Below are positions 32,998 to 48,581 of a DNA stretch of 64,000 bases, piece by piece. The position numbers and the translations under genes are program-made. Numbering within the stretch: position 1 is the first letter of the stretch; the number at the start of each line of letters is the position of its first letter. The DNA is from Mycobacterium sp. EPa45 (GTDB lineage: Bacteria; Actinomycetota; Actinomycetes; Mycobacteriales; Mycobacteriaceae), in contig NZ_CP011773.1 of NCBI RefSeq assembly GCF_001021385.1, forward strand, positions 558,001 to 622,000, written 5' to 3'. The notes beneath the pieces are model-generated. The model was not told the DNA's origin. It worked only from the letters and a program-made list of their open reading frames with translations, and did not search any database.

Positions 32998-35900
32998 TTA
33001 GCGCTTGCCCGGTGGCCTCGCGCCCTTGGCGATGCCGAGACCCTTCACCGGCGGCGCGTCGGCCTTGGGTGCCTCAGCCTTCGGTTCCTCCGCCTTGACC
33101 TCTTCGGCCTTCGGTTCCTCAGCCTTGGGTGCCTCAGCCTCAGCCTCGGCCGGAGCCGGGGCCGGTGCCGGTGCGGCCGCCGGAGCGGACTTCTTGGCGC
33201 CCGGGCGACGAGCGCCCGCGGCGATGCCGAGCCCCTTGACCGCAGGCTCCTGAACGGGCTTCGCCGGCTCGGCCTCGGCCGGTGCTTCAGCGGCGGGCGC
33301 TTCGGCGGCGGGCGCTTCGGCGGCCGGTGCGGCAGCCTTCTTGGCGCCGGGTCGCTTGGCGCCCGCGGCGATACCGAGTCCCTTGACGGGCGCCTCCGCC
33401 TTGGCCGGTGCGTCGGCGGCAGGTGCCTCCGGAGCCGGAGCCGCAGCCGGTGCCTCGGCGGCCGGTGCGGCAGCCTTCTTCGCGCCGGGTCGCTTTGCGC
33501 CAGTGGCGATTCCGAGGCCCTTGACCGGTGCGGCAGGTGCCTCGGCAGCGGGAGCCTCGGCGGCAGGAGCAGCGTCGGCCGGCTTCTTGGCGCCGGCGCC
33601 GGGCCGCTTGGCCCCACCGGCGATGCCCAGACCCTTGACCGGTTGAGCCTCCTTGGCCGGTGCCGACGGCGCGGCTGCCGCGGGCTCCGGTGCCGACTCG
33701 GGCTCGGCCTCCGGCGCGGCGGGCGCCTCGGCCGGTGCCGCTGCTGCGGCGGCTTCAGCCTCGCGGGCAGCGGTGCCCTTTTCCGGCAGCGTGACCGTGC
33801 TCAGGTCCAGCGAGCCCAGCAGCAGCTGCGCGACGTCGAGCACCTCGACTTCGTCCGCCTTATCGCGGTCGCCGACACCGTCGGTGATCATCACGCGGCA
33901 GAACGGGCACCCGGTTGCGATCTTGGCCGGATCCAACGTCAGCGCCTCGTCCACGCGCTCGTGGTTCACGCGCTTGCCGATGTGCTCTTCCATCCACATC
34001 CGGGCGCCGCCCGCGCCACAGCACAGGCCGCGGTCGGCGTGCCGGGGCATCTCCTTCAGGGTCACGCCCGAGGCGTCGATCAGCTCACGCGGTGCGTCGT
34101 AGACCTTGTTGTGTCGGCCCAGGTAGCACGGGTCGTGATAGGTGACGTTGGCTCCACCATCAACGGCCTTGACCGGCACCAGCTTCTTGTCACGGACCAG
34201 GCGGTTCAGCAGCTGAGTGTGGTGCACCACGGTGTAGCTGCCGCCGACCTGCGGGTACTCGCGGCCCAGCGTGTTGAAGCAGTGCGGGCAGGTCACGACG
34301 ATCTTGCGGTCTACCCGCTCGACGCCTTCGAACAGATCGTTCAGCGTCTCGACGTTCTGCGAGGCCAGCTGCTGGAACAGGAACTCGTTGCCGGAGCGCC
34401 GAGCCGAGTCGCCGTTGCAGGTCTCGCCGTCGCCGAGCACCAGGAACTTCACGCCGGCAGCGGCCAGCAGTTCGGCAACCGCCTTCGTGGTCTTCTTGGC
34501 GCGATCCTCGTAGGCGCCCGCGCAGCCCACCCAGAACAGGTACTCGAAGCCGGCGAACGACTCGACGTCCTTGCCGTAGACCGGGATGTCGAACTCGACC
34601 TCGTCGATCCAGGTGAGGCGCTCCTTGGCATTCTGGCCCCACGGGTTGCCCTTGGACTCCAGGTTCTTGTAGAGCACACCGAGCTCACTGGGGAATTCCG
34701 ACTCCATCATCACCTGGTAGCGGCGCATGTCGACGATGTGGTCGATGTGCTCGATGTCCACCGGGCACTGCTCGACGCAGGCGCCGCAGGTTGTGCACGA
34801 CCACAGCACGTCGGGATCGATCACGCCGAGCTGTTCGGCGGTGCCGACCAGCGGACGGGTCGCCTGCGCGGGACCGGAGCCCAGCACCCGCTCGAAGCCC
34901 GACTCCGGGACGGCGTGGTGCTCGTCGTGCTTCTCGCCCCGCAGCTCTTCGCCCAAACCACCTTCGGGGGTGTTCTCCATCGGGCTTTCCTTGTCGCCGA
35001 GGATGTACGGCGCCTTGGCGAACAGGTGGTCGCGCAGGTTCATGATCACGAGCTTGGGCGACAACGGCTTTCCGGTGTTCCACGCCGGGCACTGCGACTG
35101 GCAGCGACCGCACTCGGTACAGGTGGTGAAGTCGAGGTAGCCCTTCCAGGTGAAGTCCTCGATCTTGCCGCGACCGAGCACGGCATCTTCGGCGGGATCC
35201 TCGAAATTGATCGGCTCGCCCTTGTACTCGACGGGCAGCAGCGGACCGAGGCCATTGGGCAGGCGCTTGAACGTGACGTTGATCGGGGCCAGACCGATGT
35301 GCAAGTGCTTGGAGTGCAACACGATCAGCAGGAACGCCAGCATGACGCCGATGTGAGCGAGCAGTGAGATCGTCTCGATCCACACGTTGGCGGTGGTGCC
35401 GAGCGGCGCCAGCAGGGCGGCCATCCCGTGCGAGAAGAACGCACCCCAGCCATAGGGGAACGCCTCACCGAGTGCATTGACCGAGGCGCCGCGGAAGAAG
35501 GCGAAGGTCAGGATGACCAGGAAGATCATGAACAGGATCAGCCAGGCGCCGCCGGTGTGCGAGCCGTAGAAGCGCGACGAACGGCCGTACTCCTTGGGCT
35601 CGGAGCGCAACCGGATGATCGTGAACACGATGATGCCGAGCAGCACGGCTGCGGCGAAGAAGTCCTGCAGGAAGCCGAGCGCATTCCAGCGGCCGACCAA
35701 CGGAATATGGAATTCGGGATTGAACAGAACACCGTAGGCCTCGAGGTACACCGACGCCAGAATGAAGAAGCCCCACATGGTGAAGAAATGCGCAAGGCCC
35801 GGGATGGACCACTTCAGCAGCTTCTTCTGGCCGAAGACTTCGGTGAACTGAGCCTTGATGCGAGCAGGGATGTCGTCCTTGCGACCGCTCTCGTCGCCGA

Positions 35901-36018
35901 CCGGCTGACCCGACCGGATCAACCGGTACAAGAACTGCACTCGCTTTGCGGCAAACAGCAGCACCACGGCGGTCGCCAGCAGGCCGATGATCAGCCGAGC
36001 CCAGTCGAGAGTGGTCAC
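32998..36018 (-). CDS. etfD: Membrane Fe-S oxidoreductase EtfD (ETF:menaquinone type) with repeat tail
   Basis: GTG 36018 follows GGGAGGC. The 1006-residue protein has about six N-terminal helices (about 5-255, a nitrate-reductase-gamma-like cytochrome part), two 4Fe-4S sites (CTECGRCQSQCP and CTTCGACVEQCP), and CCG domains with CPHCFNTLG, HDPCYLGRHN and GLCCGAGGARMW. The position matches Rv0338c, shown in M. tuberculosis to act with the FixAB electron-transfer flavoprotein in fatty acid oxidation, passing electrons to menaquinone. The tail (about 740-1006) is Ala/Pro/Glu-rich with five VKGLGIA-GA-RPGAKK-like repeats. Confidence 0.9.
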   Translation of the reverse strand: MTTLDWARLIIGLLATAVVLLFAAKRVQFLYRLIRSGQPVGDESGRKDDIPARIKAQFTEVFGQKKLLKWSIPGLAHFFTMWGFFILASVYLEAYGVLFNPEFHIPLVGRWNALGFLQDFFAAAVLLGIIVFTIIRLRSEPKEYGRSSRFYGSHTGGAWLILFMIFLVILTFAFFRGASVNALGEAFPYGWGAFFSHGMAALLAPLGTTANVWIETISLLAHIGVMLAFLLIVLHSKHLHIGLAPINVTFKRLPNGLGPLLPVEYKGEPINFEDPAEDAVLGRGKIEDFTWKGYLDFTTCTECGRCQSQCPAWNTGKPLSPKLVIMNLRDHLFAKAPYILGDKESPMENTPEGGLGEELRGEKHDEHHAVPESGFERVLGSGPAQATRPLVGTAEQLGVIDPDVLWSCTTCGACVEQCPVDIEHIDHIVDMRRYQVMMESEFPSELGVLYKNLESKGNPWGQNAKERLTWIDEVEFDIPVYGKDVESFAGFEYLFWVGCAGAYEDRAKKTTKAVAELLAAAGVKFLVLGDGETCNGDSARRSGNEFLFQQLASQNVETLNDLFEGVERVDRKIVVTCPHCFNTLGREYPQVGGSYTVVHHTQLLNRLVRDKKLVPVKAVDGGANVTYHDPCYLGRHNKVYDAPRELIDASGVTLKEMPRHADRGLCCGAGGARMWMEEHIGKRVNHERVDEALTLDPAKIATGCPFCRVMITDGVGDRDKADEVEVLDVAQLLLGSLDLSTVTLPEKGTAAREAEAAAAAAPAEAPAAPEAEPESAPEPAAAAPSAPAKEAQPVKGLGIAGGAKRPGAGAKKPADAAPAAEAPAAEAPAAPVKGLGIATGAKRPGAKKAAAPAAEAPAAAPAPEAPAADAPAKAEAPVKGLGIAAGAKRPGAKKAAAPAAEAPAAEAPAAEAPAEAEPAKPVQEPAVKGLGIAAGARRPGAKKSAPAAAPAPAPAPAEAEAEAPKAEEPKAEEVKAEEPKAEAPKADAPPVKGLGIAKGARPPGKR

Positions 36019-36166: not shown

Positions 36167-38650
36167 TCAGCTCTGGGGCGACAGAATCGCCCGTAGCATC
36201 GACAGCATCTCCGATCGGGACTCCGCACCGAGACGACGACGAATCCTGGCGACGTGGTGCTCGACGGTCTTCGCCGAAATGAACAGCTGCGCGCCGATAT
36301 CTCGATATGGCATGCCCAGCAACAGCAACTCCGCCACCTCGCGCTCGCGGTCCGACAGCGGCGAGGACGTCGGCCGCGCGCCGGTCGATGCCGACGCCGA
36401 CGCCTCGGATACCGCCGGCTGAGCGTCGTCGGTCCCACTGTCACCCACGGACAGTTTCAGGTCGCGCGCGACCTGCAGCATGAGTCCCGACACCTTGGGG
36501 TCGGAGGTCTGCAGCGCGGCCTGGCCGGCCAGCCGGGTGGCGTCCGCGGTCAGCCCAAACTCGGCCAGCCCGCGCGCGGCCGCACCGACGTCGTCGGCGT
36601 CGACCTGCCCGGCGAGCACTCTCAGCCAGGTCCGGCCGGCCACCGCCAGGGCCTTGGCGAACGGACTCTGCGCTGCGGCAGCGGTCAGAGCCTGGCCGTG
36701 CGGGGCCACCGCCGCGGGATCATTGGCCAGGATCCCGGCGTGCACCCCGGCCCAGCGCAGCGGAATCGACCAGGTGGGTGGGTTGCCCAGCGAATCCAGC
36801 AGCCCGAACGCCTGCTCGAGAGCGGGGGCCAGCCGATCCTGCTGGCCGATCCGGGCGGACGCCACCCAGAGCTCGCCCAGCGGCAATAGCGAGAACAAGT
36901 CGACCGAATACTCGACCAGCACCTCCATCGCGGCATACCAATACTTCTGCAGTGCGCCGGCATCCCCGCCTCGCCGCGCCAGCGCGGTGCGCAGCCCGGC
37001 CGCCCACAACGCATCCCGGCGATGGGTGTCGTCGATTCCGGTGATGTCACCGGCGGCCGCCGTGAATTGGCCGTCCTGCATCTTGGTCCAACCGAGCAGC
37101 AGGCGGTGCCGATGCGCGTACAGCGGGTCCTCGTTATCCCGGTCGGCGCGCACCGCCCTCGAGATGACACTGCGTGCACGGACCGGATCCCCGCCGTGCA
37201 GTGCCGCCAGCGTGACCAGTGCCGCCGGACTGTCCGGCAGCACCTGGCCCGCCGAATACTCCGCGGCCATCGCTGCCCCGAGTTTGAGGGCCGCCGTCGA
37301 GTAGGGCCCCTGCAACGTCGCCAGAAGTCCCTCGGCCAGGGTGCGCGCGGCGCGGGAGGCTGCGGTCGGCGGCCCTGCGCTCTGTACTGCCAGGGCGCGT
37401 TCGGCGGCGGCGCGATCACCGGTCGCGGTCAGTACGATCGCCGCTGCGGCGCCCACCGCCGCGTCGGGGTACGGGCCGAGCCAGTCGAACAACTCAGCGG
37501 CCTGCGCGGAGTTGCCGTTGAGCATCGCGACGCTGGCCGAGACCCGGACCGCCGCAGCCCGCTCGGCGGGGTCGTCGGAGGCCAGAAGGGCGTCGGCTTC
37601 GGTTGCCGCCGCGGATGATTCGCCGGCCAGGGCCAATGCGTCGGCCAGCTGCGCCCGCAGTTCGACCGCGCCCGCGTCGACTGCGGCTCGGAACAGGGCC
37701 GCGTCGGCGCGTCCCGCACCGGCTTGTCGTCGCAAGACCCCGGCCAATTGCTCGTCCCGGACGCCGTGTTCGGCCAGTCGCAGCGCAAGGTCGAGCGAGA
37801 GTGTCGACATCGCGATCTGTGACCGCAGCAATGCCGTCTCGACGTCGTGATGGCGGGCGTTGCCCAAGATCTGAGCCACCGCGCGGTGCACGACCCGCAG
37901 GAAGTGCGGGTTGTGCGCGGGCTCGATCAGCCCGGTGGCCCGCGCCCGGTCAATCAACAGCCTCGCTTCGTCGGCCGTAACATCCAGCGCTGCAGCCAGA
38001 TCCGCAGCGCCGAGATCACGGCTGAGGGAGGCGATGAGCAATGCATCGAGCTCCGGTTCGCCGAGCCGGCGCAGCCGGTCGATGAGCGCAAACAATGCGG
38101 CCTGTGCGATCGGGGCAGCCGAGTACGGCCGAGCCGACGCCAGGGCGGCCTCGATCAGGAACGGGATGCCGGCCGTCGCGACGAAAATGTTGGTCACCAA
38201 TTCGGTGCGTGGGGGATGGCCGGACGGATCGGTCATGAGCCTGGATATGTCGGCGGAAGTCAGCGGCCCCAATGAGATTCGAGGCCGCTCCCTGTCGATC
38301 GCCGTCATCAAGGCTTGTAGGGCGTCGTCGTAGTCACGCGGCTGGGCGGCCACCACGACCGTCGACGCCGGCTCGGCGACGAGCTCGGTGAGGCGCTGCA
38401 AATCGGTGCCGGTCAGCAGATGCGCGTCGTCGACCACCACGGCGGCATCGGCGGGGTCACCGTCCGCCGGCGCTCGGGTCAGCACGGCGGTGCCGGCGTC
38501 GCGCAGGGCTTCGCGGACCGCGACGAGCAACGTGGTCTTACCCGTTCCGACGCCGCCGGTCACCAACAGCTTGACCGGCCCCGACCCCAGCGCGCTGATC
38601 GCCTCGTGGGCAACCGGCGAAAGATGCTGCACCGTAACCGAATCAGGCAC
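36167..38650 (-). CDS. iniR: Large LuxR-type STAND ATPase regulator (IniR-like)
   Basis: The 827-residue protein has an N-terminal P-loop (VTGGVGTGKTTLL, about 30-42), Walker-B-like AAVVVDDAHLL, a long helical repeat region (about 330-720) of the MalT type and a C-terminal LuxR HTH (SPLSDREREVAELLLLGMPYRDIGAQLFISAKTVEHHVARIRRRL). It occupies the position of Rv0339c. The orthologue in M. marinum has been described as IniR, a STAND ATPase activating iniBAC in response to trehalose; I use that name on synteny. CCCCTA repeats upstream of two ini genes are candidate targets. Confidence 0.82.
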   Translation of the reverse strand: MPDSVTVQHLSPVAHEAISALGSGPVKLLVTGGVGTGKTTLLVAVREALRDAGTAVLTRAPADGDPADAAVVVDDAHLLTGTDLQRLTELVAEPASTVVVAAQPRDYDDALQALMTAIDRERPRISLGPLTSADISRLMTDPSGHPPRTELVTNIFVATAGIPFLIEAALASARPYSAAPIAQAALFALIDRLRRLGEPELDALLIASLSRDLGAADLAAALDVTADEARLLIDRARATGLIEPAHNPHFLRVVHRAVAQILGNARHHDVETALLRSQIAMSTLSLDLALRLAEHGVRDEQLAGVLRRQAGAGRADAALFRAAVDAGAVELRAQLADALALAGESSAAATEADALLASDDPAERAAAVRVSASVAMLNGNSAQAAELFDWLGPYPDAAVGAAAAIVLTATGDRAAAERALAVQSAGPPTAASRAARTLAEGLLATLQGPYSTAALKLGAAMAAEYSAGQVLPDSPAALVTLAALHGGDPVRARSVISRAVRADRDNEDPLYAHRHRLLLGWTKMQDGQFTAAAGDITGIDDTHRRDALWAAGLRTALARRGGDAGALQKYWYAAMEVLVEYSVDLFSLLPLGELWVASARIGQQDRLAPALEQAFGLLDSLGNPPTWSIPLRWAGVHAGILANDPAAVAPHGQALTAAAAQSPFAKALAVAGRTWLRVLAGQVDADDVGAAARGLAEFGLTADATRLAGQAALQTSDPKVSGLMLQVARDLKLSVGDSGTDDAQPAVSEASASASTGARPTSSPLSDREREVAELLLLGMPYRDIGAQLFISAKTVEHHVARIRRRLGAESRSEMLSMLRAILSPQS

Positions 38651-38656
38651 TGTTGA

Positions 38657-40552
38657 CTAGCCCGAGGTAGGTGACGTCACGCCGGTGATGATGTCGCGCG
38701 TGGTCGGCGGCGCGGCTGTGGTGGTAACCGGTTTGACGGTGGTGGTTGGCGGGGCCTGCGTAGTCGTCGGCGGTTGGGTCGTCGTCGGCGGTTGCGTGGT
38801 CGTGGTCGGTGGCTGGGTGGTGGTCGTAGTCGTCGGCGGTGTCGTTGTGGTCGTGGTCGTCGTGGTGGTGGTTGTCGTCGTGGTGGTCGACGGTGTCGTC
38901 GTCGTGGTGGTCGTGGTGGGTGCGGTCGTCGTCGGGATGACGGTGGTGGTCGCCGGAATCGTCGACTCGGTGGGCACCCCGTCCGAGCCGGTGATCGTAA
39001 CCGTCTGCGGCGGAATGACACTCGTCGCCGGAGCTTCGGTCGGGTCGCCAGGCTTGGTCACCCGGGTGGTCGTGGTCGTCGGTGTGCTGTCCGCGCTGGT
39101 GAGGGTGATGGCCAGTCCGCCCACCGCCACCGCTGCGAGTGCGGCGGCAATGCCGAACAGCAGCGGCGGGCGCCGGTACCACGGCACCGGAGCGGGGACC
39201 AGTTCGGTCTCCTCGTCCTGCGGCTCGAACTCGACCATCGGGCGCATCCCGGTGGCACCCGCCTGTTGGGCGTAATCGAAGGTGTAGTCCTCGCCCGAAT
39301 ACGGCACCGGCTCCGCGCCGGGCGCATCGTCCTGCGACCACGCCAGCGCGCGGAACGTCGCCGACGGCGAACCATCGGTCGCCGATTCCGTTGCGGCCAC
39401 GCCCGCTGCCCCGGCGGCCCAGGCGGCCGGAGCGAGCCCGGTCGGGGCGTCGGCGGCGGCCACCGCCATGCCCGTCGGCGCATCCGGCGCGCCGCCGCGC
39501 GCGGCGATCACCGCAGAACCGATCGCCGCGTTGAGGCCAGGCAACGCCGTGGTGATGACCGGAACGCGCAGTTCCTCGGAAAGTCGTTGCGTCAGAATCG
39601 GTATCGCTGCACCACCGCCAACTGTTGCCACCGCGGCCAGATTGACCGCAGGGATCCTGTTGCGCTCCAGCACATCTCCGAGCGTGTCGAGGAAGCCCGC
39701 GAGCGGCTCGGCGAGGAGCGCCTCCAGTTCCGGTCGGGTGACCCGGATGTCGGAGCGAAAACCGGGCAGTTCGGCCGGCACCACAGTCGCGGTCTCTGAG
39801 GACAGCCGCTCCTTGGCCTGTCGGCACTCGTCGCGCAGCCGGGTCAGCGCGCCGACGGCGTTGGTGCTGGCCGGATCGATATTGGCCTCGTCGCGGATGC
39901 CCGCAAGCACCTGGGTCAGCAGTGCCTGGTCGAGCTGGTCGCCGGAGAGGTCGGTGAAGCGAACCGTCTCTCCGATCGGCTGCAGGTTCGCACCGGCGTC
40001 GGCGAGGGTGATGTTCGCTCCGCTGCCGCCGAAGTCGCACAGCGCGATCACCCCCTGTGATGGGAGGCCTGGATCGGCCTGCAAGGCGGCCAGGGCAGCC
40101 GTCGCATCCGAGATCAGCATCGGCGGAATGCCGTTGGGCGACAAGACAGGTCGGGTGCGCAGCGCACCGCGCAGGGCGCCGACCGCTCCGGCACCCCAGT
40201 ACGCGGGAACCGCGACGACCAGATTGGACGGCGGCGAGCCGTCGTCGACCGTGCGGGCCATCGCCTCGAGCGCGTCGGCGATCAGGTCCTCTCCGCGGTG
40301 CGGTGACCCGTCGGCGGCCACCAGTGGCACCGGATCGCCTGCCCGCTCGACGAAGCCGCGGAACACCTGGCCCGACGCGGTGAGGTTCGGGCTCGTCAGC
40401 TCCGGGTTCTGGGAGGGGACGCCGACCTCGGCGGGTCGGTTGTCCCACAACGTCAGCACCGATCGGCGGGTGACTGGCTGGCGGCCCGGGCGCGCAGCCG
40501 CCAGGTTGGTCGCTCCGATCGACAACCCCAGCGAGTCGCTCAATTCGCACAT
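38657..40552 (-). CDS. Hsp70-like protein with PWYR-TM anchor and Thr-rich tail
   Basis: The start is ATG 40552, or the TTG three codons later (LSDSLGLSIGATNLAAAR). The head (about 1-345) has Hsp70/actin-fold motifs: SLGLSIGATN, LVVAVPAYWGAGAV, ALCDFGGSGANITLAD (phosphate loop) and ATVGGGAAIPILTQRL (adenosine motif). The sequence then gives VPWYRRPPLLFGIAAALAAVAVGGLAITL, a PWYR motif just before a membrane helix (about 457-485). The tail is almost wholly Thr/Pro/Val. It lies between the IniR-like gene and the ini genes, and three CCCCTAA repeats lie just upstream of its start. Confidence 0.82.
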   Translation of the reverse strand: MCELSDSLGLSIGATNLAAARPGRQPVTRRSVLTLWDNRPAEVGVPSQNPELTSPNLTASGQVFRGFVERAGDPVPLVAADGSPHRGEDLIADALEAMARTVDDGSPPSNLVVAVPAYWGAGAVGALRGALRTRPVLSPNGIPPMLISDATAALAALQADPGLPSQGVIALCDFGGSGANITLADAGANLQPIGETVRFTDLSGDQLDQALLTQVLAGIRDEANIDPASTNAVGALTRLRDECRQAKERLSSETATVVPAELPGFRSDIRVTRPELEALLAEPLAGFLDTLGDVLERNRIPAVNLAAVATVGGGAAIPILTQRLSEELRVPVITTALPGLNAAIGSAVIAARGGAPDAPTGMAVAAADAPTGLAPAAWAAGAAGVAATESATDGSPSATFRALAWSQDDAPGAEPVPYSGEDYTFDYAQQAGATGMRPMVEFEPQDEETELVPAPVPWYRRPPLLFGIAAALAAVAVGGLAITLTSADSTPTTTTTRVTKPGDPTEAPATSVIPPQTVTITGSDGVPTESTIPATTTVIPTTTAPTTTTTTTTPSTTTTTTTTTTTTTTTTPPTTTTTTQPPTTTTQPPTTTQPPTTTQAPPTTTVKPVTTTAAPPTTRDIITGVTSPTSG

Positions 40553-40589
40553 CCCTTCGCCGCCTGATCGGCTGCCGTCAACACCATAT

Positions 40590-40629
40590 CCCCTAATGTC
40601 TTCAGAACCCCTAAGGCCGCACCCCCTAA
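40590..40629. promoter_or_regulatory. Three CCCCTAA direct repeats
   Basis: CCCCTAA occurs at 40590-40596, 40608-40614 and 40623-40629, spaced 18 and 15 bases apart, between the divergent Hsp70-like and IniB-domain genes. The proximal copy ends 54 bases before a TAACAT hexamer (40684-40689). On the minus strand TATGGT lies just beyond the distal copy and could be the -10 of the Hsp70-like gene. Confidence 0.6.
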
Positions 40630-40747
40630 TGGTGCCGCGCTTCGAGTGGCTTCGACACCGATCACGGCGCCCTCGTCCGCCGATAACATTCTTGGCAGCA
40701 GCTGGGATTCCACTGTGACTATCGGTGGCAGGAGAGAAGGCGTTTCC

Positions 40748-41284
40748 ATGGCAAATTCGTTGCTCGACTTCGTGATGTCGCTCGTGCGAGATCCCGACGC
40801 CGCCGCACGCTACGCCGCGGACCCGGCGGGCGCGATCGCCGATGCCCATCTGACCGATGTGACCAGCGCTGACGTCAGCAACCTGATTCCCATGGTGGCC
40901 GACTCCCTGTCGGGACCGGTCTCGGGAGGCGGCTTCGGCCCCGGCCCCGCAGCCGGCGACGGGAACGTGTGGGCGAGCGGCGCGGCGACGGCCGCATTCG
41001 ACGCCTTCGACCACTTGCCCGCGGCTGTCACCGCACCCGAGGTCCACTCGGTCATCACCGAGGTCGCGCAGCACGCGGATCAGGCCCCGTCGTTGATTAC
41101 CGATCTCGGTGTCGACCCCGGTGCGCTGGACCTGCCGGGCGCCGCGGCCCAGGTCACCGACACCGTCCTTGACCACGGAGTGTCTCCCGATGCCGGCCAC
41201 GACTGGGCGGATCCCGCGGCATGGGACCACAGCCACGCCGCCGACGACCACGGAGTCGACCACTCCGGCTTCGACCTGTTCTGA
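40748..41284 (+). CDS. IniB N-terminal-domain protein (Rv0340-like)
   Basis: ATG 40748 begins ANSLLDFVMSLVRDPDAAARYAADPAGAIADAHLTDVTSADVSNLIPMVADS, the same domain as the start of IniB (LLDWILDLFRNEDAARAFVAAPEQTMRDAGL). The second half is Ala/Asp/His-rich, ending DHSHAADDHGVDHSGFDLF. At 178 residues it matches Rv0340 in size and position. TAACAT (40684-40689) is the likely -10. A strong hairpin follows its stop. Function unknown; probably envelope-stress-induced like iniB. Confidence 0.82.
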   Translation: MANSLLDFVMSLVRDPDAAARYAADPAGAIADAHLTDVTSADVSNLIPMVADSLSGPVSGGGFGPGPAAGDGNVWASGAATAAFDAFDHLPAAVTAPEVHSVITEVAQHADQAPSLITDLGVDPGALDLPGAAAQVTDTVLDHGVSPDAGHDWADPAAWDHSHAADDHGVDHSGFDLF

Positions 41285-41294
41285 TCCCCGGGCA

Positions 41295-41324
41295 AATCCC
41301 CACGTCCACCGCGACGTGGGGATT
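41295..41324 (+). terminator. Strong hairpin after the IniB-domain gene
   Basis: AATCCCCACGTC (41295-41306) and GACGTGGGGATT (41313-41324) form a perfect 12-pair stem with a six-base loop, 10 bases past the stop codon. It should insulate iniB transcription from the upstream gene. Confidence 0.7.
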
Positions 41325-41342
41325 CGTCGCGTCTGGAGCTTT

Positions 41343-41390
41343 CCCTAGGGACCCCCTAATCCCCTACGATTCGGCCCCTAGCCGACCCTA
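41343..41390 (+). promoter_or_regulatory. Array of five CCCTA repeats upstream of iniB
   Basis: CCCTA cores lie at 41343-41347, 41354-41358, 41362-41366, 41376-41380 and 41386-41390; three of them read CCCCTA. The last core ends 56 bases before a TAACGT hexamer (41447-41452), the likely -10 of iniB, which has only a weak -35 (TTTTCG). The similar layout at 40590-40689 suggests a shared activator. Confidence 0.6.
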
Positions 41391-41501
41391 GTAGGAGCGC
41401 GCTGACGAGGGGTGGCGACCCCGTTTTCGCCCGACGGTGCCGTCCATAACGTGGTCTCCAGATCGCCGGAGTCACTGGCGAATTCACCGAAAGGTCCGAC
41501 A

Positions 41502-42491
41502 ATGCTCACTCTCCTCGACTGGATTCTCGACCTGTTCCGCAACGAGGACGCCGCACGTGCGTTCGTCGCCGCGCCGGAGCAGACCATGCGGGACGCCGGG
41601 TTGGCCGGTGTGTCGGCAGCCCAGGTCTCGACGCTGGCGGCCACCGCTGTCCCCGGCCTGGTGCTGGGCGGCGGCGACCCGGTCGTCGGCCTGCAGCGCG
41701 CGGTGTCCAACCACTACGGCTTCGCGCCGGCCTACCAGCCGGTCTACGCGCCGTCGCCGACGTTCGCCCCGCAGACCGATCTCGCCAGCCACAACGACAC
41801 CTCGCTGTTGAGCCCGGACCAGAATGCCGGTGCCAACGCCCAGCAGGGTGCGTTCAACCTCGGCTTCGGTGACATCACCTTCGGCAACAAGACCACGAAT
41901 ACCGCCACCAACGGCGGCGTGGTGGTCGACGGCCAGAACAAGGGTGACATCGTCAGCGGAGACGGCGCTGTCCTGGGCAACGGCAACGAGGTGAACAACG
42001 GTCACGTGGCGGCCGGCACCGGTTCCAACGTCGCGATCGGCCACAGCCATGTCTCTGACAACGGCACCACCGCCACCGGCGGCAGCACCGTGATCAAGGA
42101 CAACAGCGGCCCGGTCCTGCACGACGTGGACGCCAGTGGCGGCAACGGCGGCGGCGCCTCGGCGGGCGGCAGCCTGATCGGCCTCGGCGGCGGCCACGCC
42201 TCCGGTGGTAACGCCGGCGGTGGTGGCATCACCATCATCGACAGCCATCCGTCGACCAACAGCGGCAATACGGCCAGCTCGCCGGTCAACACCCAGACCG
42301 AGACCCACACCACCACCTCGGTGACCGACCACTCCGACAACTCGGTGCACCAGACGAACGACAGCTCGACGCACGACTCGTCCAGCCACTCGCTCTTCGA
42401 CGCCAGCCACGACACCACGCTGGTGAACAGCAATCTGGACAACAGCCACGACATGGCGCTGGCGTCCGGCAACCACCTGCTGGGGTTGTAG
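41502..42491 (+). CDS. iniB: IniB, isoniazid-inducible Gly/Asn/Ser-rich protein
   Basis: ATG 41502 (LTLLDWILDLFRNEDAARAFV) starts an IniB N-terminal domain of about 70 residues, followed by a long Gly/Asn/Ser/Thr/His-rich region with units such as GDGAVLGNGNEVNNG and HSHVSDNG. The body recalls beta-roll or PGRS-type low-complexity proteins. It is the first gene of the ini block (iniB-iniA), induced by cell-wall inhibitors such as isoniazid and ethambutol in M. tuberculosis. Its biochemical role is unknown. No signal peptide is evident. Confidence 0.9.
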   Translation: MLTLLDWILDLFRNEDAARAFVAAPEQTMRDAGLAGVSAAQVSTLAATAVPGLVLGGGDPVVGLQRAVSNHYGFAPAYQPVYAPSPTFAPQTDLASHNDTSLLSPDQNAGANAQQGAFNLGFGDITFGNKTTNTATNGGVVVDGQNKGDIVSGDGAVLGNGNEVNNGHVAAGTGSNVAIGHSHVSDNGTTATGGSTVIKDNSGPVLHDVDASGGNGGGASAGGSLIGLGGGHASGGNAGGGGITIIDSHPSTNSGNTASSPVNTQTETHTTTSVTDHSDNSVHQTNDSSTHDSSSHSLFDASHDTTLVNSNLDNSHDMALASGNHLLGL

Positions 42492-42507
42492 AGCAATCCG
42501 ACGGCGG

Positions 42508-42538
42508 CGGGGATCTCCAGGATGTCTGGAGGTCCCCG
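42508..42538 (+). terminator. Hairpin between iniB and iniA
   Basis: CGGGGATCTCCAG (42508-42520) pairs with CTGGAGGTCCCCG (42526-42538), with one G-U pair and a five-base loop. It lies within the 86-base iniB-iniA gap. It may attenuate read-through or mark an RNA-processing point that lowers iniA relative to iniB. Confidence 0.55.
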
Positions 42539-42577
42539 TCGCTCGTCTGCGCTTACGGTGGACCACTGGGAGGACAT

Positions 42578-44413
42578 GTGACGCAACCACAGCAGGACCC
42601 GCGCCGGGTGAGTGTGATCGTCGAGCTGATCGATCACACCAAGGCGATCGCCGACCTCAACGACCGTGGCGACCTGGTCGCCCGGCTCGCGGTCGCCAGG
42701 GAACGCATCACCGACCCGCAGATCCGGGTGGTCATCGCAGGACAGCTCAAACAGGGCAAGAGCCAGCTGCTCAACTCGCTGCTCAACATGCCGGTCGCCC
42801 GCGTCGGCGACGACGAGACCACCGCCCTGGTCACCGTCATCAGCTACGCCGAGCAGCCGTCAGCGACGTTGATCGTCTCCGTCGGCGAGGGCGTGCCGCC
42901 GCAGAGCATCGACATCCCGATCGATGACATCCGCCACGACCTTCGCCGCGCGCCTCAGGCGCAGGGCAGGGAGGTGCTGCGGGTCGAGGTCGGCGCGCCC
43001 AGCCCGCTGCTGCAGGGCGGCCTGGCGTTCATCGACACACCCGGCGTCGGCGGCCACGGCCAGCCGCACCTCTCGTCGACCCTCGGGTTGCTCCCGGACG
43101 CCGACGCGATGCTGATGATCAGCGACACCAGCCAGGAATTCACCGAACCCGAGATGCGGTTCATCCGCCAGGCCCATGAAATCTGTCCGGTCGGCGCGAT
43201 CGTCGCCACCAAGACCGACCTCTATCCGTTCTGGCGCGAGATCGTCTCTGCCAACACCGCGCACCTGCAACGCGCCGGATTGCAGATGCCGCTCATTCCG
43301 GCATCCTCGCTGTTGCGCAGCCACGCGATCCAGCTCAACGACAAGGAACTCAACGAGGAATCCAACTTTCCGGCGCTCGTCTCATGGCTCTCGGAAAAGG
43401 TGCTCTCCCGCGAGAACGATGCGGTGCGCGACCATGTTGTCACCGAAATACGCTCCGCAGCTGAACATCTCAGCCTGTCGGTAAATTCCGAACTGTCCGC
43501 CTTGAGTGACCCGGATCAGGCGCGCCGGCTCACCGAGGACCTCGAGCGCCGCAAGCAGGAAGCCCAGGAGGCCCTGCAGCAGACCGCGCTGTGGCAGCAG
43601 GTCCTCAACGACGGCATCGCGGACCTGACTGCCGACGTCGAACACGATCTGCGGGCGCGATTTCGGTCCATCACCCAGCACATCGAGAGCGTCATCGACG
43701 ACTGTGATCCCACCCAGCACTGGGCGGAAATCGGTGCGGAGGTGGAAGATTCCGTCGCCAACGCGGTCGGCGACAACTTTGTGTGGGCCTACCAGCGCGC
43801 CGAGAAGCTGGCCGAAGACGTCGCCCGGACCTTCGTCGAGGCCGGCCTGGATGCCATCAAGATGCCCGAGGTCAGCGCGGCCGAGATGAATGCCGGTCTG
43901 GGCCGGCTCAAATCGCTGGCTCGCCTGGAATCCAAGCCGATTGGCAAGGGCCACAAGGTGATCACCAGCATGAGGGGTTCGTACGGCGGTGTGCTGATGT
44001 TCGGCATGCTCACCTCGGTCGCCGGTCTGGGTATGTTCAACCCGCTGTCTTTGGGTGCGGGTCTGCTCCTCGGGCGCAAGGCATACAAGGAGGACATGGA
44101 GAACCGCATGATGCGGGTCCGCAACGAGGCCAAGACGAATCTGCGCCGGTTTGTCGACGACGTGTTGTTCGTGGTGTCCAAGGAATCCCGCGATCGGCTC
44201 AAGAACGTGCAGCGCCAGCTTCGTGACCACTACCGCGACATCGCCAATCAGACCACCCGCTCCCTGAACGAGTCGCTGCAGTCCACAATCGCCGCCGCGC
44301 GGATGGAGGAGACCGACCGCAACAACCGCATCCGCGAGCTCGAGCGGCAGGCCAACATCCTCACCCAGGTCATCGACAATGTCGAAAAGCTGGTTCCCGC
44401 AAGAACTCTCTAA
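42578..44413 (+). CDS. iniA: IniA, dynamin-like GTPase
   Basis: GTG 42578 has GGGAGG five bases upstream. The 611-residue protein carries the P-loop GQLKQGKS (55-62), a Thr in the switch region and the DTPGVGG G3 motif (about 152). TKTD (VATKTDLYPFW) is G4. A hydrophobic hairpin (GVLMFGMLTSVAGLGMFNPLSLGAGLLLG) lies at the paddle/tip and long helices flank it. IniA of M. smegmatis is a bacterial dynamin-like protein that mediates membrane fission. Its stop overlaps the convergent PWYR gene by four bases. Confidence 0.94.
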   Translation: MTQPQQDPRRVSVIVELIDHTKAIADLNDRGDLVARLAVARERITDPQIRVVIAGQLKQGKSQLLNSLLNMPVARVGDDETTALVTVISYAEQPSATLIVSVGEGVPPQSIDIPIDDIRHDLRRAPQAQGREVLRVEVGAPSPLLQGGLAFIDTPGVGGHGQPHLSSTLGLLPDADAMLMISDTSQEFTEPEMRFIRQAHEICPVGAIVATKTDLYPFWREIVSANTAHLQRAGLQMPLIPASSLLRSHAIQLNDKELNEESNFPALVSWLSEKVLSRENDAVRDHVVTEIRSAAEHLSLSVNSELSALSDPDQARRLTEDLERRKQEAQEALQQTALWQQVLNDGIADLTADVEHDLRARFRSITQHIESVIDDCDPTQHWAEIGAEVEDSVANAVGDNFVWAYQRAEKLAEDVARTFVEAGLDAIKMPEVSAAEMNAGLGRLKSLARLESKPIGKGHKVITSMRGSYGGVLMFGMLTSVAGLGMFNPLSLGAGLLLGRKAYKEDMENRMMRVRNEAKTNLRRFVDDVLFVVSKESRDRLKNVQRQLRDHYRDIANQTTRSLNESLQSTIAAARMEETDRNNRIRELERQANILTQVIDNVEKLVPARTL

Positions 44414-44841
44414 GGCGAGGACGACCGAGTCTCGTTGAGCCGCGGACCCGACCGGGTGCCGGGCGGGTGGGTGACGCGGGTCGGGAAGGTGCCCGGGAAT
44501 GTCGGAGCCACCCGCTCCGACGGTGGCACCTCCGATGTGATCGTGGTGCTCGAGGATGACGTGCTGCTGGTCGTGCTTTCACCGGGCAGCCCGATGTCGG
44601 TCGTCGACAGCCGCACGCTCGGATAGGACGCGCTCGTCGAGCCCGCGGTGGTCTTCGCGATGTGCGGGGCATCCGGCAGACGCGTGCCAGGAGGAAGCAC
44701 GGTCTCGGTGTCGGTGGTGCTCCACTTGCTCGACATCGAGACCACCGCGTAGACGAGAAGAGCGACGACCGCCAGCCCGAGCAGCCCCGCAGCCGAGGTG
44801 GCCGCCGTCGAGCGGTACCACGGAGCCTTGTGCTGGGGCAT
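44410..44841 (-). CDS. PWYR membrane protein with Ser/Thr-rich tail (between iniA and iniC)
   Basis: The 143-residue protein starts MPQHKAPWYRSTAATSAAGLLGLAVVALLVYAVVSMSSKW: a short cytosolic end with PWYR (7-10), then one helix (about 16-37). The outer tail is Ser/Thr/Pro-rich and probably glycosylated. Its stop overlaps that of iniA, and its start faces iniC across 57 bases, so it separates the two GTPase genes. On the minus strand TAGGAT lies about eight bases before the ATG and may be the -10. Function unknown. Confidence 0.78.
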   Translation of the reverse strand: MPQHKAPWYRSTAATSAAGLLGLAVVALLVYAVVSMSSKWSTTDTETVLPPGTRLPDAPHIAKTTAGSTSASYPSVRLSTTDIGLPGESTTSSTSSSSTTITSEVPPSERVAPTFPGTFPTRVTHPPGTRSGPRLNETRSSSP

Positions 44842-44883
44842 GGCGGCTGATCCTAGCCGTCATACGCGCGGGCCGCCGGACCG

Positions 44884-44889
44884 TAGACT
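44884..44889 (+). promoter_or_regulatory. Candidate -10 hexamer for iniC
   Basis: TAGACT at 44884-44889 fits the mycobacterial TANNNT -10 pattern and is nine bases before the iniC ATG, giving a leaderless or almost leaderless transcript. No consensus -35 is seen. iniC needs its own promoter because the gene before it is on the other strand. Confidence 0.4.
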
Positions 44890-44898
44890 CGTCGTTCG

Positions 44899-46395
44899 AT
44901 GAGCACCAGCGATCAGGTTCGCGCCATCCTGGGCGGCACCCGTCGCGCATACCAGGGTGAACCGGCGTACCGCGAGCGGCCCGATGTGTTCAACGAGCTG
45001 GACCGCATCGCCGGGCGGCTCAACCAGCCGATCCGCATCGCGTTGGCCGGGACACTCAAGGCCGGCAAGTCCACTCTGGTCAACGCGCTGGTGGGTGAGA
45101 ACATTGCGCCGACCGACGCCACCGAGGCCACCCGCATCGTCACCTGGTTCCGGCACGGCCCGATCCCGAAGGTGACCGCCAATCATGTCGGCGGACGGCG
45201 CTCCAACGTGCCGATCGCTCGCGGCCAAGCCGGGTGGGCCGGACTGACCTTCGACTTCGGCCGGCTCGATGCCAGCGACATCGTCGACCTCGACGTGGAA
45301 TGGCCGGCCGCCGAGTTGATCGACGCGACGATCATCGACACGCCCGGCACGTCCTCGTTGTCACGTGATGTGTCCGAGCGGACCCTGCGCCTGCTGGTCC
45401 CCGAGGACGGTGTGCCGCGAGTCGATGCCGTGGTGTTCCTGCTGCGCACCCTGAACGCCGCCGACATCGCACTGCTCAAGCAGATCGGCGAGCTGGTCGG
45501 CGGGTCCTCCGGGGCGCTCGGCGTCATCGGGGTGGCCTCCCGCGCCGACGAGATCGGCGCCGGCCGCCTGGACGCGATGATGTCGGCCAAGGACGTCGCG
45601 CAGCGGTTCACCGGCGAACTGGATCGGACCGGCATCTGTCAGGCAGTGGTTCCCGTCTCGGGCCTGTTGGCGCTCACCGCGCGGACTCTGCGTCAATCCG
45701 AGTTCGCCGCGCTGGAGAAGCTGGCGGCCGTCGACGCCAACGAATTGAACAAGGCGATGCTGTCGGTGGACCGCTTCGTTCGCGAGGACAGTGCACTGCC
45801 GGTCGACGCGCAGACCCGGGCTCAGCTGCTCGACCGGTTCGGCATGTTCGGCCTGCGGATCTCGATCGCCGTTCTGCGGGCCGGCGCCGCAACCGATTCG
45901 GTCACCCTGGCTGACGAACTGCTCGAACGCAGCGGGCTGATCGCGCTGCGCGACGTCATCGACCAGCAGTTCGCCCAGCGGTCCGAACTGCTCAAGGCGC
46001 ACACCGCGCTGGTCTCGCTCCGGCGGTTCGTCGAGATGCACCCGATCACCGCGACGCCGTACATCATCGCCGACATCGACCCGCTGCTGGCCGACACCCA
46101 TGCCTTCGAAGAACTCCGGCTGCTCAGTCAATTACGTTCTCGACCAACGACTTTGACCGAGGATGAGATGGTTTCGCTGCGGCGGATCATCGGCGGATCG
46201 GGCACTGATCCCGCAAGCCGGCTGGGGCTGACCCCGGAAACGCTCGACGACGGACCGCGCGCCGCGTTCGCCACGGCGCAACGCTGGCGCCGGCGTGCTG
46301 AACACCCGCTCAACGACCCGTTCACCAGCAGGGCGTGCCGTGCCGCCGTACGCAGCGCTGAGGCGCTCGTCGCGATGTACGCTGCCGGCGCTTAA
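44899..46395 (+). CDS. iniC: IniC, dynamin-like GTPase
   Basis: The 498-residue protein has the P-loop GTLKAGKS (51-58), ATEATRIVTW as switch I and IIDTPGTSSLS (DTPG about 147) as G3. The G4-like VASRADEIGAG follows. The C-terminal half is helical (about 255-498) without a long hydrophobic tip, unlike IniA. This matches IniC of the iniBAC operon, which acts with IniA in tolerance to isoniazid and ethambutol in M. tuberculosis. Its TAA overlaps the convergent PWYR gene by three bases. Confidence 0.93.
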   Translation: MSTSDQVRAILGGTRRAYQGEPAYRERPDVFNELDRIAGRLNQPIRIALAGTLKAGKSTLVNALVGENIAPTDATEATRIVTWFRHGPIPKVTANHVGGRRSNVPIARGQAGWAGLTFDFGRLDASDIVDLDVEWPAAELIDATIIDTPGTSSLSRDVSERTLRLLVPEDGVPRVDAVVFLLRTLNAADIALLKQIGELVGGSSGALGVIGVASRADEIGAGRLDAMMSAKDVAQRFTGELDRTGICQAVVPVSGLLALTARTLRQSEFAALEKLAAVDANELNKAMLSVDRFVREDSALPVDAQTRAQLLDRFGMFGLRISIAVLRAGAATDSVTLADELLERSGLIALRDVIDQQFAQRSELLKAHTALVSLRRFVEMHPITATPYIIADIDPLLADTHAFEELRLLSQLRSRPTTLTEDEMVSLRRIIGGSGTDPASRLGLTPETLDDGPRAAFATAQRWRRRAEHPLNDPFTSRACRAAVRSAEALVAMYAAGA

Positions 46396-46973
46396 CCGCC
46401 GCCCGGCCGCGGGAAGCCCGGGATCGTCGGCAGCACGCGCTGCGTCGTGGTCACCGTCTCGGTCACCGTACTCACCGAGGTGGACGTGCTCGTGCTGGTA
46501 CTCGTGCTGGTGCTGGTACTCGTCGACGGCGCCTCGGTGGTCGTCGTGGTGGTCGGCGTCGTCGTCGCGGGGGCCTCCGACGCGGTCGGTGACTCGGTCA
46601 CGGTCTGGGTGACACCCGGTGCCGGAGCCTCCGTCGCCGACGTCGCGGCCGTGGTCGACGTTGTCGGCGAGGTCCTCGTGGTGGTCGTCGGGCTGGAGCC
46701 GCTGCCGCTGGTGAACTGGACGATCGCGTAGATCAGCAAGGCCAGGACGAGCGCCGTCAGGACACCGAGGCCGACCAGCGCCGCAGGCTTGCGGTACCAG
46801 GGGGTCGGCTCGGGCGGCGGCGGCGGGTAGTCGCCGTAACCGGTCGGAGCTCCGTATTCGGACTGCTGGTAGTCGCTGTAGGCCTCGCCGCCGGTGCCGC
46901 CGTAGTTTGCGTACTGCGTCGGGTCACTGTCGGAGTAGTTGTTCGGGTCGTCGGGGGAACCGTCGCGCGCCAC
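46392..46973 (-). CDS. PWYR membrane protein with Tyr-rich head and Thr/Ser tail
   Basis: The 193-residue protein has a Tyr/Gly/Asp-rich cytosolic head (many DY, NY, EY units, residues 1-50), then PPPPPEPTPWYRKPAALVG (PWYR at 58-61), one helix (about 64-87) and a tail of Thr/Ser/Pro runs including an STSTST stretch. It shares this plan with its neighbour at 46992, 18 bases upstream on the same strand, with the 44410 gene and the Hsp70-like gene. Convergent with iniC. Function unknown. Confidence 0.8.
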   Translation of the reverse strand: MARDGSPDDPNNYSDSDPTQYANYGGTGGEAYSDYQQSEYGAPTGYGDYPPPPPEPTPWYRKPAALVGLGVLTALVLALLIYAIVQFTSGSGSSPTTTTRTSPTTSTTAATSATEAPAPGVTQTVTESPTASEAPATTTPTTTTTTEAPSTSTSTSTSTSTSTSTSVSTVTETVTTTQRVLPTIPGFPRPGGG

Positions 46974-46991
46974 GGGTTCCGATTCTAACCG

Positions 46992-47600
46992 TCAGCCGCT
47001 GCCCGGTTGATTGGGGAAGGCGGGGCGGTGGGTGGGACGCACGCTGATCTGCGGCGGCCGCGTCTGCGGGGTTGTCACGTTCGGGCGGTCGCCGCCGCTT
47101 TGCTGGGGGTAGCGCGGCGCCCAGGTACCCTGCGGCGGTGCCGGCGGCGGGCTGCCCGGTGGCGGCGGGGGAGGCGGCGGAGGTTCGGGCGGTTGTGAAC
47201 TGGTCAGCGCGGTGGTCGTCGCCGGGGTTGTCGACGTCGATGACGGCGTGGTCTTCGAATGTCCGGAGTCATCGGAGTCCAGCGCCACCAGCAGGACCGC
47301 TGCGACCAGGATCGCGACGACACCCGCGCCTATCGCGCCTATCGCCAGCGTGGCCTGCTTCTTGCGGTACCACGGCCGTTCAGGAAACCAGAACGCATCC
47401 GGGGCGAACGGGTCGAACCCGTCGTCGACGGTGAGCACGGGCAGGGCGGGATCCGTCGGCGGGTCGGTGTCGCCGCTGGGCGAAGTCTCGGCCGCGCGCT
47501 CCGACCCCGGATACGGCTGCTCCGGATACGGCCCGAACGGGTCACCGAACGGGACGGGCGATGCCTCGTCGACATCCCCGGCGGGGTCGTGCTTCGCCAC
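46992..47600 (-). CDS. PWYR membrane protein with Pro-rich tail
   Basis: I start at GTG 47600 (VAKHDPAGDVDEASP), although the frame is open to 47648. The cytosolic head (about 75 residues) is Asp/Pro/Phe-rich; FPERPWYRKKQATLAIGAIGAGVVAILVAAVLLVAL puts PWYR at 76-79 before a helix. The tail is Thr/Ser, then a run of prolines and a Pro/Arg/Gln-rich end. It is the middle member of the minus-strand run from lpqJ to 46392. Function unknown. Confidence 0.78.
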   Translation of the reverse strand: MAKHDPAGDVDEASPVPFGDPFGPYPEQPYPGSERAAETSPSGDTDPPTDPALPVLTVDDGFDPFAPDAFWFPERPWYRKKQATLAIGAIGAGVVAILVAAVLLVALDSDDSGHSKTTPSSTSTTPATTTALTSSQPPEPPPPPPPPPGSPPPAPPQGTWAPRYPQQSGGDRPNVTTPQTRPPQISVRPTHRPAFPNQPGSG

Positions 47601-47648: not shown

Positions 47649-48581
47649 TCAGGCGAGTTGCCGAACCACCTCGGTGGCGAACAGGTCGATGTGGTCGAGA
47701 TCGGTCATATCCAGCAGTTGCAGGTACACCCGCTGCACGCCGGCTTCGATGAACGGCCCCAGGCGGTCGACGATTTCCCCGGGCGTGCCGACCAGCGGCG
47801 TGTTGGTGCGCAGCTCGTCGACCTCGCGGGAAATGGCCTGCGCACGGCGGCTGATCTCAGCGTCGTCGCGCCCGGCGCAGACCACGAACGCCGCCGAGTA
47901 CACGATGTCGTCAGGTGCGCGGCCGGCGTCTCGCAGGGCGGCGCGCACCCGGTCGTATTGGGGTTCGACGAAGTCCAGCGCCGGGAACGCGAGGTTGTAC
48001 TCGGAGGCGAACCGGGCGACCAACGCCGGGGTGCGCTTGGGTCCGTCGCCGCCGATGATGATCGGCGGATGGGGGTTCTGAGCCGGTTTGGGTAGGGCGG
48101 GGGAGTCCTTGACCGTGTAGTGGGTGCCGTCGTAATCGAAGGTCTGGCCCGCCGGTGTGGTCCACAGCCCGGTGATGATGTCGAGCTGTTCGCGAAGCCG
48201 CTCGAACCGCTCGCCCAGCGGCGGGAACGGGATCGCGTAAGCCAGATGTTCTTTCTCGAACCACCCGGCACCGACGCCGAGGTCGACCCGGCCCGAGCTC
48301 ATCGCGTCGACCTGGGCCACCGAGATCGCCAGCGGCCCGGGATGGCGGAAGGTGGCGGAGGTGACCAGCGTGCCGAGCCGGATTGTGCTGGTCTCGCGGG
48401 CGATGCCGGCCAGCGTCACCCAGGAATCGGTCGGCCCGGGCAGACCGTCACCGCTCATCGCAAGGTAGTGGTCGGAGCGGAAAAAGGCTGAGTAGCCGAG
48501 GGATTCGGCGGCCTGCGCCACGGCGAGCTGATCGGCGTAGCTGGCACCTTGCTGGGGTTCGACGAAGACGCGGAAATCCAT
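47649..48581 (-). CDS. LLM-class F420-dependent oxidoreductase
   Basis: I start at ATG 48581 (MDFRVFVEPQQGASYADQLAVAQAAESLGYSAFFRSDHY), which matches the luciferase-like monooxygenase start; the longer frame is rejected. RIRLGTLVTSATFRHPGPLA-type sequence, SSGRVDLGVGAGWFEKEHLAYAIPFP and PPIIIGGDGPKRTPALVARFASEYN follow and are typical of F420-dependent LLM proteins. At 310 residues it is full length. It probably reduces an unknown substrate with F420H2. It starts 11 bases after the lpqJ stop. Confidence 0.86.
   Translation of the reverse strand: MDFRVFVEPQQGASYADQLAVAQAAESLGYSAFFRSDHYLAMSGDGLPGPTDSWVTLAGIARETSTIRLGTLVTSATFRHPGPLAISVAQVDAMSSGRVDLGVGAGWFEKEHLAYAIPFPPLGERFERLREQLDIITGLWTTPAGQTFDYDGTHYTVKDSPALPKPAQNPHPPIIIGGDGPKRTPALVARFASEYNLAFPALDFVEPQYDRVRAALRDAGRAPDDIVYSAAFVVCAGRDDAEISRRAQAISREVDELRTNTPLVGTPGEIVDRLGPFIEAGVQRVYLQLLDMTDLDHIDLFATEVVRQLA

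Follow-up and report, generated by a model that had tools for sequence, protein, structure and literature searches.

The closest described systems come from M. smegmatis, in which a dnaK-like gene lies beside iniR (PMC5760070) and MSMEG_0692/Rv0312 was cross-linked to the polar-growth protein FhaA (PMC11898655). Like the Hsp70-like protein of the locus analysed here, these are Hsp70-type, carry one helix, are proline/threonine-rich and adjoin the ini locus, and by annotation and position they are very probably the same gene as that member; the juxtamembrane box and the companion small proteins are not described in the available portions of these two reports. A literature search for PWYR together with transmembrane returned nothing, and no paper was found treating two or more of Rv0338c, Rv0339c and Rv0340. 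The other relevant system is the iniBAC/IniR isoniazid response, which shares a common locus with the box genes in Mycobacterium sp. EPa45, the Hsp70-like gene lying directly upstream of iniR; the box set is nevertheless encoded opposite to iniBAC and is kept where IniA is absent.

The window, a stretch of 64,000 nucleotides of the EPa45 genome, contains iniR, the regulator of iniBAC, at 36167..38650 on the minus strand (NF038181, 1277.5 bits; model cut-off 750). The Hsp70-like gene (38657..40552, minus strand; 631 residues; refined ATG start at 40552) stops 6 bases short of iniR on the same strand, and was identified from PF00012 (64.5 bits, scored on a slightly shorter frame), a structure model and PDB matches. 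The plus strand carries a Rv0340-family gene, iniB* (40748..41284; NF038176, 209.4 bits; start set at the beginning of the family-model match), an iniB-type gene with the IniB N-terminal domain (41502..42491; NF038175, 66.3 bits; start set close to the beginning of the match), and the dynamin-like GTPase genes iniA (42578..44413; PF00350 and relatives) and iniC (44899..46395; PF00350). Three small genes occupy the minus strand. The 44410 gene (44410..44841), encoding 143 residues with a head of 6, sits antisense between iniA and iniC, its stop overlapping the 3' end of iniA. The 46392 gene (46392..46973) overlaps iniC tail to tail and encodes 193 residues with a Tyr-rich head containing DPTQY and a T/S-rich tail, for which relatives were found; 18 bases upstream of it lies the 46992 gene (46992..47600; refined GTG start at 47600), encoding 202 residues with an Asp/Pro-rich head and a P/T-rich tail. 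Two minus-strand genes flank the site: an Fe-S reductase gene (32998..36018), which by position we take to be Rv0338c-like and which served as anchor for the site in IniA-lacking genomes, and a luciferase-like oxidoreductase gene, named by eye (47649..48581), as second anchor.

All four of the proteins that an earlier note on this DNA had grouped together are present, each with PWYR directly ahead of a single membrane helix and a T/S/P-rich tail behind it. On the minus strand, the box lies at 39173..39184 in the Hsp70-like protein (helix 39107-39163), at 44812..44823 in the 44410 protein (helix 44734-44790), at 46791..46802 in the 46392 protein (helix 46719-46775) and at 47364..47375 in the 46992 protein (helix 47280-47336). 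Spacing from box to hydrophobic 19-mer is 3-9 residues in all four (mean Kyte-Doolittle of the 19-mer, 2.43-2.91) and the tails are 54-71% T/S/P, while the heads measure 456, 6, 57 and 75 residues, respectively. Across the 6.18 Mb genome, 34 DNA sites for PWY[R/S] were all read in frame, and five precede a hydrophobic helix: four are the box genes, within 8.2 kb, and the fifth lies in a frame of 784 residues that appears by eye to be an MmpL-type multi-pass transporter. The PWYK pattern gave 0 sites in the same 6.18 Mb. A genome search with a profile of the module returned the four box proteins as the only strong matches (52.9-60.2 bits), all at the locus, bearing out the note's reading of a strongly clustered, common membrane-interface box on differing heads; the fifth match, at 26.4 bits, is an Hsp70 paralogue with AWYRR, located at 4.04 Mb.

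The box recurs through the genus on differing heads, generally as [P/A]-W-Y-[R/K] with rarer variants, and the set occurs in nearly every sampled congener for which enough sequence was available. Box genes were present in 85 of 101 ini loci of the genus, giving 188 proteins, among which phmmer labels place four small T-rich proteins under Hsp70. The conservation of alignment columns flanking the box is partly circular, the rows having been picked for the box, so we did not rely on it and used a head-only and a motif-blind scan instead. Hsp70-like proteins found by their head alone had W[YF][RKQ] before the helix in 136 of 150 cases within the genus, the remaining 14 being without the box, and in 0 of 36 outside it, where one has WWK. 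The motif-blind scan of one-helix frames with T/S/P tails found W[YFHN]x ahead of the helix in 207 of 223 from loci of the genus and in 0 of 9 from outside. The box is not absolute, as some small relatives carry PWHE, GWRK or PWYL instead. In a divergent congener (G202), all 54 sites for PWY[RKHQS/N] were read (56 readings, from overlapping stretches) and four precede a helix, three of them in the ini locus and one in an apparent multi-pass symporter. An even spread over the genome, which the earlier note had set against its own grouping, was thus not seen in either of the two genomes read completely, EPa45 and G202.

An aromatic belt combined with positive-inside charge is an established rule for anchoring a helix at the membrane interface. 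The box could accordingly be just a good anchor, kept by duplication and with no dedicated partner, since its position and residues fit such a role, variants are tolerated, the genes stand in tandem and searches that include the box connect the small families. We regard this as possible but doubtful. A generic juxtamembrane motif was rejected as a full answer, because five PWYR-helix frames in a whole genome do not make the box a common anchor. Moreover, the helices of the labelled families are no longer cross-detected once the box is removed, and the Hsp70-like helices are related across their family by head homology, yet the head-only scan finds WY[RKQ] only inside the genus. The failure of the helices to detect each other without PWYR also led us to reject homology of the whole module and to limit the claim to a shared motif; rapid divergence of the helices following gene duplication is another way in which the box could have become all that they share. 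Short signals beside a helix are familiar from sorting and processing systems such as LPXTG and PEP-CTERM. The box resembles these in being a near-invariant motif next to a helix, common to otherwise unrelated proteins, but differs in standing ahead of the helix, where it presumably faces the cytosol, in falling mostly within one gene cluster and in having no assigned enzyme.

The Hsp70-like protein consists of an Hsp70-type head, a disordered linker, the PWYR box, one helix and a T/P-rich tail. Its nucleotide-binding domain has the Hsp70 fold: PF00012 matches, model residues 5-350 match DnaK structures, and Hsp70-type structures are among the matches listed by VIA-align and Foldseek. The catalytic positions of DnaK are largely replaced, however. 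In 111 relatives aligned to EPa45 DnaK (DnaK numbering), S replaces D8 in 97, V replaces K70 in 96, D replaces E171 in 101 and S replaces D201 in 77, while all 111 keep D194; as a set, the catalytic residues are degenerate. The C-terminal substrate-binding domain of DnaK is also absent, the model being disordered past residue 350 up to the helix at 461-484, after which the T/P-rich tail follows. The M. smegmatis dnaK-like gene is placed downstream of iniR in the part of PMC5760070 available to us; in EPa45 the gene is upstream. By annotation and position, MSMEG_0692 is probably this member, and any link of the latter to FhaA depends on that identity. MSMEG_0614-0616 was rejected as the M. smegmatis locus; it belongs to the ESX-3 region.

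The earlier note had proposed that IniA and IniC, the two dynamins, are brought to the membrane or positioned there by the PWYR proteins. Physical linkage in the 85 loci would favour this, as would a second box-bearing Hsp70-like gene near iniC on the iniA strand (11 of the 188 box genes, the other 177 pointing opposite to iniA); in slow growers such as M. europaeum and M. parascrofulaceum, an AWYR Hsp70-like gene comes right after iniC on the same strand. However, 37 of 40 genomes that lack IniA and have the flanking Fe-S gene keep box genes at the same site and in the same direction, with none at the site in the other three, and outside the genus iniA and iniC were present in 55 of 55 loci examined, of which one (L048) has PWY[RK] ahead of a helix. 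In addition, according to the portion of PMC6715688 available, IniA contacts the membrane through a loop of its own. The box set is therefore not primarily a recruiter of IniA and IniC, a role we consider improbable. The Hsp70-like gene is missing from several IniA-lacking sites and hence cannot be an obligatory part of the set. The clustering claimed in the note held strongly in EPa45 and G202, but strict ini linkage is ruled out by the persistence without IniA and by copies elsewhere, namely an extra box protein away from the site in at least nine genomes and the EPa45 paralogue at 4.04 Mb. The box genes are thus linked to iniBAC/IniR where iniA is present, yet persist without it, and the proteins look like a separate, hitherto undescribed cell-envelope set. 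This persistence indicates that the set has its own function, and shifts where the sensor should be sought.

The best explanation of the whole, to which we give an even chance, is that this mycobacterial single-pass set forms one envelope-facing inner-membrane unit with the box as docking element, from which iniRBAC is separable. The unit would comprise presumed N-in/C-out proteins: one to three small ones with T/S/P-rich outer tails, joined in most of the sampled species by an Hsp70-type head that is anchored in the membrane and has degenerate catalytic residues. On the cytosolic side of the membrane, the W-Y-[R/K] box would let these proteins dock onto one common membrane partner, whether one another or an elongation component, and their tails may extend into the wall. 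The Hsp70 head may be no chaperone but a scaffold or nucleotide-binding switch, and the set may cooperate with the polar-growth machinery. iniRBAC would be a separable stress cassette, in many species interleaved with the set on the other strand. Outside the genus the Hsp70-like gene adjoins iniR, upstream, in 41 of 42 loci showing both, and this old pairing would be the likeliest contact between box set and iniRBAC. The interactions and the topology of this unit are putative. We also entertain, as rather unlikely, a fuller form of the docking explanation in which W-Y-[R/K] is an interface address for one partner and defines a mycobacterial trans-envelope tether: the threonine of DPTQY-type heads, once phosphorylated, could be read by an FHA protein such as FhaA, the tails would reach into the wall, the non-hydrolysing Hsp70 head would serve as a switch, and iniRBAC would be a plug-in repair cassette under the Hsp70-IniR contact. 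The question bears on how the iniBAC stress locus couples to the cell wall and on the organisation of envelope growth at the poles of mycobacterial cells, for which the box set, including a probably FhaA-associated Hsp70-like protein, offers a compact, testable gene set.

By composition, the four proteins have the single helix and T/S/P-rich outer region of O-mannosylated envelope proteins, the tails being presumed to lie outside; this composition allows the glycosylated-tail sensing of wall damage suggested in the note. We know of no other mannoproteins that bear the box. That the box flags clients for export or O-mannosylation of their tails is very improbable: the tails are rich in T/S/P and a mycobacterial mannosyltransferase favours proline-rich sites via a WW-like domain (PMC12331936, as far as the accessible text goes), but the box presumably faces the cytosol, and among five one-helix frames with T/S/P tails in 868 kb of other sequence it occurs in one distinct protein only. 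A short C-terminal tail motif was absent from the 44410 set (0 of 18) and the 46992 set (0 of 16) and present at 19 of 60 ends of the 46392 set, against a background of 1.5%. A type VII secretion-associated family of NCBIfam also matched the 46992 protein, weakly and below its cut-off (E 0.0058).

The window derives from a fast-growing-type Mycobacterium, whose IniA is 96–97% identical to that of its closest named relatives, Mycobacterium sp. ENV421, Mycolicibacterium rhodesiae DSM 44223 and Mycolicibacterium sp. P1-5. On the (-) strand, a presumed Fe-S reductase gene is followed by iniR and then by the Hsp70-like gene (38657..40552); next come the Rv0340-family gene, iniB and iniA on the (+) strand, the 44410 gene (-), iniC (+), the 46392 and 46992 genes (-), and lastly a presumed luciferase-like oxidoreductase gene (-). 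Both flanking-gene names were assigned by eye or by position. PWYR, a single helix and a T/S/P-rich tail are present in all four proteins pointed out earlier, namely the Hsp70-like, 44410, 46392 and 46992 proteins. The stop of the 44410 gene overlaps that of iniA, and the stop of the 46392 gene that of iniC. In the host's species group, the 44410-type gene (44410-44841; 18 such genes labelled) lies antisense within the iniBAC transcription unit, and therefore iniBAC read-through could affect it. Elsewhere, single internal stops occur in the IniA frames of genomes G150, G153, G178, G212 and G018.

Each of the 34 PWY[R/S] codon sites in the genome was read in frame; a hydrophobic helix follows five, and four of these lie inside 8.2 kb of the window. 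A module profile search of the genome returned the identical four proteins at 52.9-60.2 bits, with the next match down at 26.4. In a distant congener (IniA 65% identical), a helix follows 4 of 54 box sites, three in the ini locus and one in a multi-pass protein.

We then examined genomes in which IniA is missing, defined as having none at E 1e-50 (45 of 148 genus genomes, 25 of the 45 being named by subtraction). The flanking Fe-S gene was found in 42 of them, and 40 of these sites were scorable, two being dropped where the contig ended at the Fe-S gene. At 37 of the 40, at least one co-directional gene lies ≤8 kb upstream whose product has W[YFH]x before a helix and a tail rich in T/S/P; one of these positives (L312) is an incomplete stretch scored on an HWYK frame. 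Counting the Hsp70-like gene, positive sites hold two box genes in 25 cases, three in six and one in six. Matches above 50 bits to iniA, iniB, iniC or the Rv0340-family gene were not found within these stretches. At one such locus (L289), the genes run consecutively in a single direction, starting with the oxidoreductase, passing through three small genes and then the Hsp70-like gene, and ending with the Fe-S gene; the window keeps equivalent gene kinds, order and direction, with iniBAC interleaved on the opposite strand. Other sites have one to three small genes with the Hsp70-like gene absent (e.g. L295, L296, L297, L304, L310, L314, L321). The box is absent at 3 of the 40 sites, in genomes of 3.2-3.3 Mb; at one of these (L311; G203, 3.2 Mb, without IniA), iniR is in two separate frames, which suggests a decaying cassette.

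Among the matches listed in a genus-wide profile search, extra 46392-like copies occur off-site in at least nine genomes. In five, the copy is on iniA's contig, 20 kb to >1 Mb distant (L271, L272, L273, L277, L278), and the other four are IniA-less genomes with box genes also at the Fe-S site (L265, L267, L269, L270; cf. L303, L315, L319, L320). The host genome carries an Hsp70 paralogue at 4.04 Mb with AWYRR before its helix (L281). The off-site copies and this paralogue argue against strict ini linkage of box genes. The earlier note had proposed that the PWYR proteins recruit or position IniA and IniC; its observation is confirmed, including the clustering, and its interpretation is supported in part, whereas strict linkage does not hold, given the IniA-less sites and the copies elsewhere. 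We favour instead a separate envelope-facing set with iniRBAC as a separable neighbour, a reading we regard as evenly balanced, having lowered our confidence slightly for these copies and for partly circular column-conservation figures. Besides L281, a second further membrane-anchored Hsp70-like paralogue (L282, 2.62 Mb) is without the box.

Across the genus, we sampled 101 ini loci (the window, 80 kept out of 213 relatives, and 20 picked from more divergent ones). At least one P[WYF][YFW][RK]-helix protein is found in 85, with 188 such proteins in total (PWYR 136, PWYK 49, PWFR 3), although species overlap among loci, so that these and the following counts are not independent. Of the remaining 16 loci, six are contigs <8 kb and ten have an AWY[RK] Hsp70-like protein; M. 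europaeum and M. parascrofulaceum, both slow-growing, are among these carriers. A motif-blind scan of ini and Fe-S loci for one-helix frames with a T/S/P-rich tail yielded 223 frames in the genus, with W[YFHN]x directly before the helix in 207, another W form in 14 and no W form in 2. The same scan of 868 kb of other sequence gave five frames, the AWYRR paralogue counted twice and three without WY. Likewise, among Hsp70-like proteins collected by head alone, W[YF][RKQ] precedes the helix in 136 of 150 from the genus. In 11 cases (L119, L124, L132, L135 and others), a second box-bearing Hsp70-like gene follows iniC on iniA's strand, possibly as part of the iniBAC transcription unit. Among the tails noted under L175-L178, those of one small box protein finish in repeated IPQIP-type units and those of several others in ITLP/ITIP-type units.

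Outside the genus, the box was found in none of nine motif-blind frames, and W[YF][RKQ] before the helix was absent from all 36 Hsp70-like proteins collected by head (WWK in one, none in the other 35). All 55 out-of-genus loci examined hold iniA and iniC. In a neighbour scan permitting overlapping open frames, iniR and the Hsp70-like gene were both visible in 42, and in 41 of these the Hsp70-like gene adjoins iniR upstream on the same strand; the pairing thus extends beyond the genus, with the box nearly limited to it. One out-of-genus exception (L048) is an Hsp70-like frame with PWYR downstream of iniR.

With the box included, the 46392 profile at E <0.01 detects 18/18 proteins of 44410 type, 12/17 of 46992 type and 20/87 labelled Hsp70; once the box is taken out, none of the labelled families detects another at E <0.01 among 26,866 frames. 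Judged from sequence, this fits retention of the box through selection on a short recognition element. Fast helix drift after duplication would look similar.

A structure model of the Hsp70-like protein (34 sequences) is confident over residues ~5-350, disordered over 355-451 and helical over 461-484, and matches DnaK structures. Aligned with the host's own DnaK, four of five positions that we take to be catalytic are replaced in most of 111 relatives, one conservatively (E to D). We infer that the head binds nucleotide without normal hydrolysis. In M. smegmatis, where MSMEG_0695 is designated IniA (PMC2945938), one study places a dnaK-like gene beside iniR, termed downstream there, and names trehalose as an iniBAC activator (PMC5760070). 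Another describes MSMEG_0692, an Rv0312 orthologue, as proline/threonine-rich with one helix and ATP binding, found only in FhaA cross-linked complexes, in the same list as trehalose-monomycolate transport proteins (PMC11898655). By annotation and position rather than sequence, MSMEG_0692 is taken to be the Hsp70-like protein.

Named relatives of the 46392 protein (60 proteins) are all hypothetical or uncharacterized. In 32 of 61 46392-type heads (e.g. 46902-46973), we found [D/E]-T-[Q/E]-[Y/F], with up to two residues between, against a background of 0.65% of first-75-residue stretches in other frames. Our guess is that this acidic-x-T-[Q/E]-[Y/F] element may be a candidate kinase/FHA site, its phospho-threonine bound by an FHA domain.
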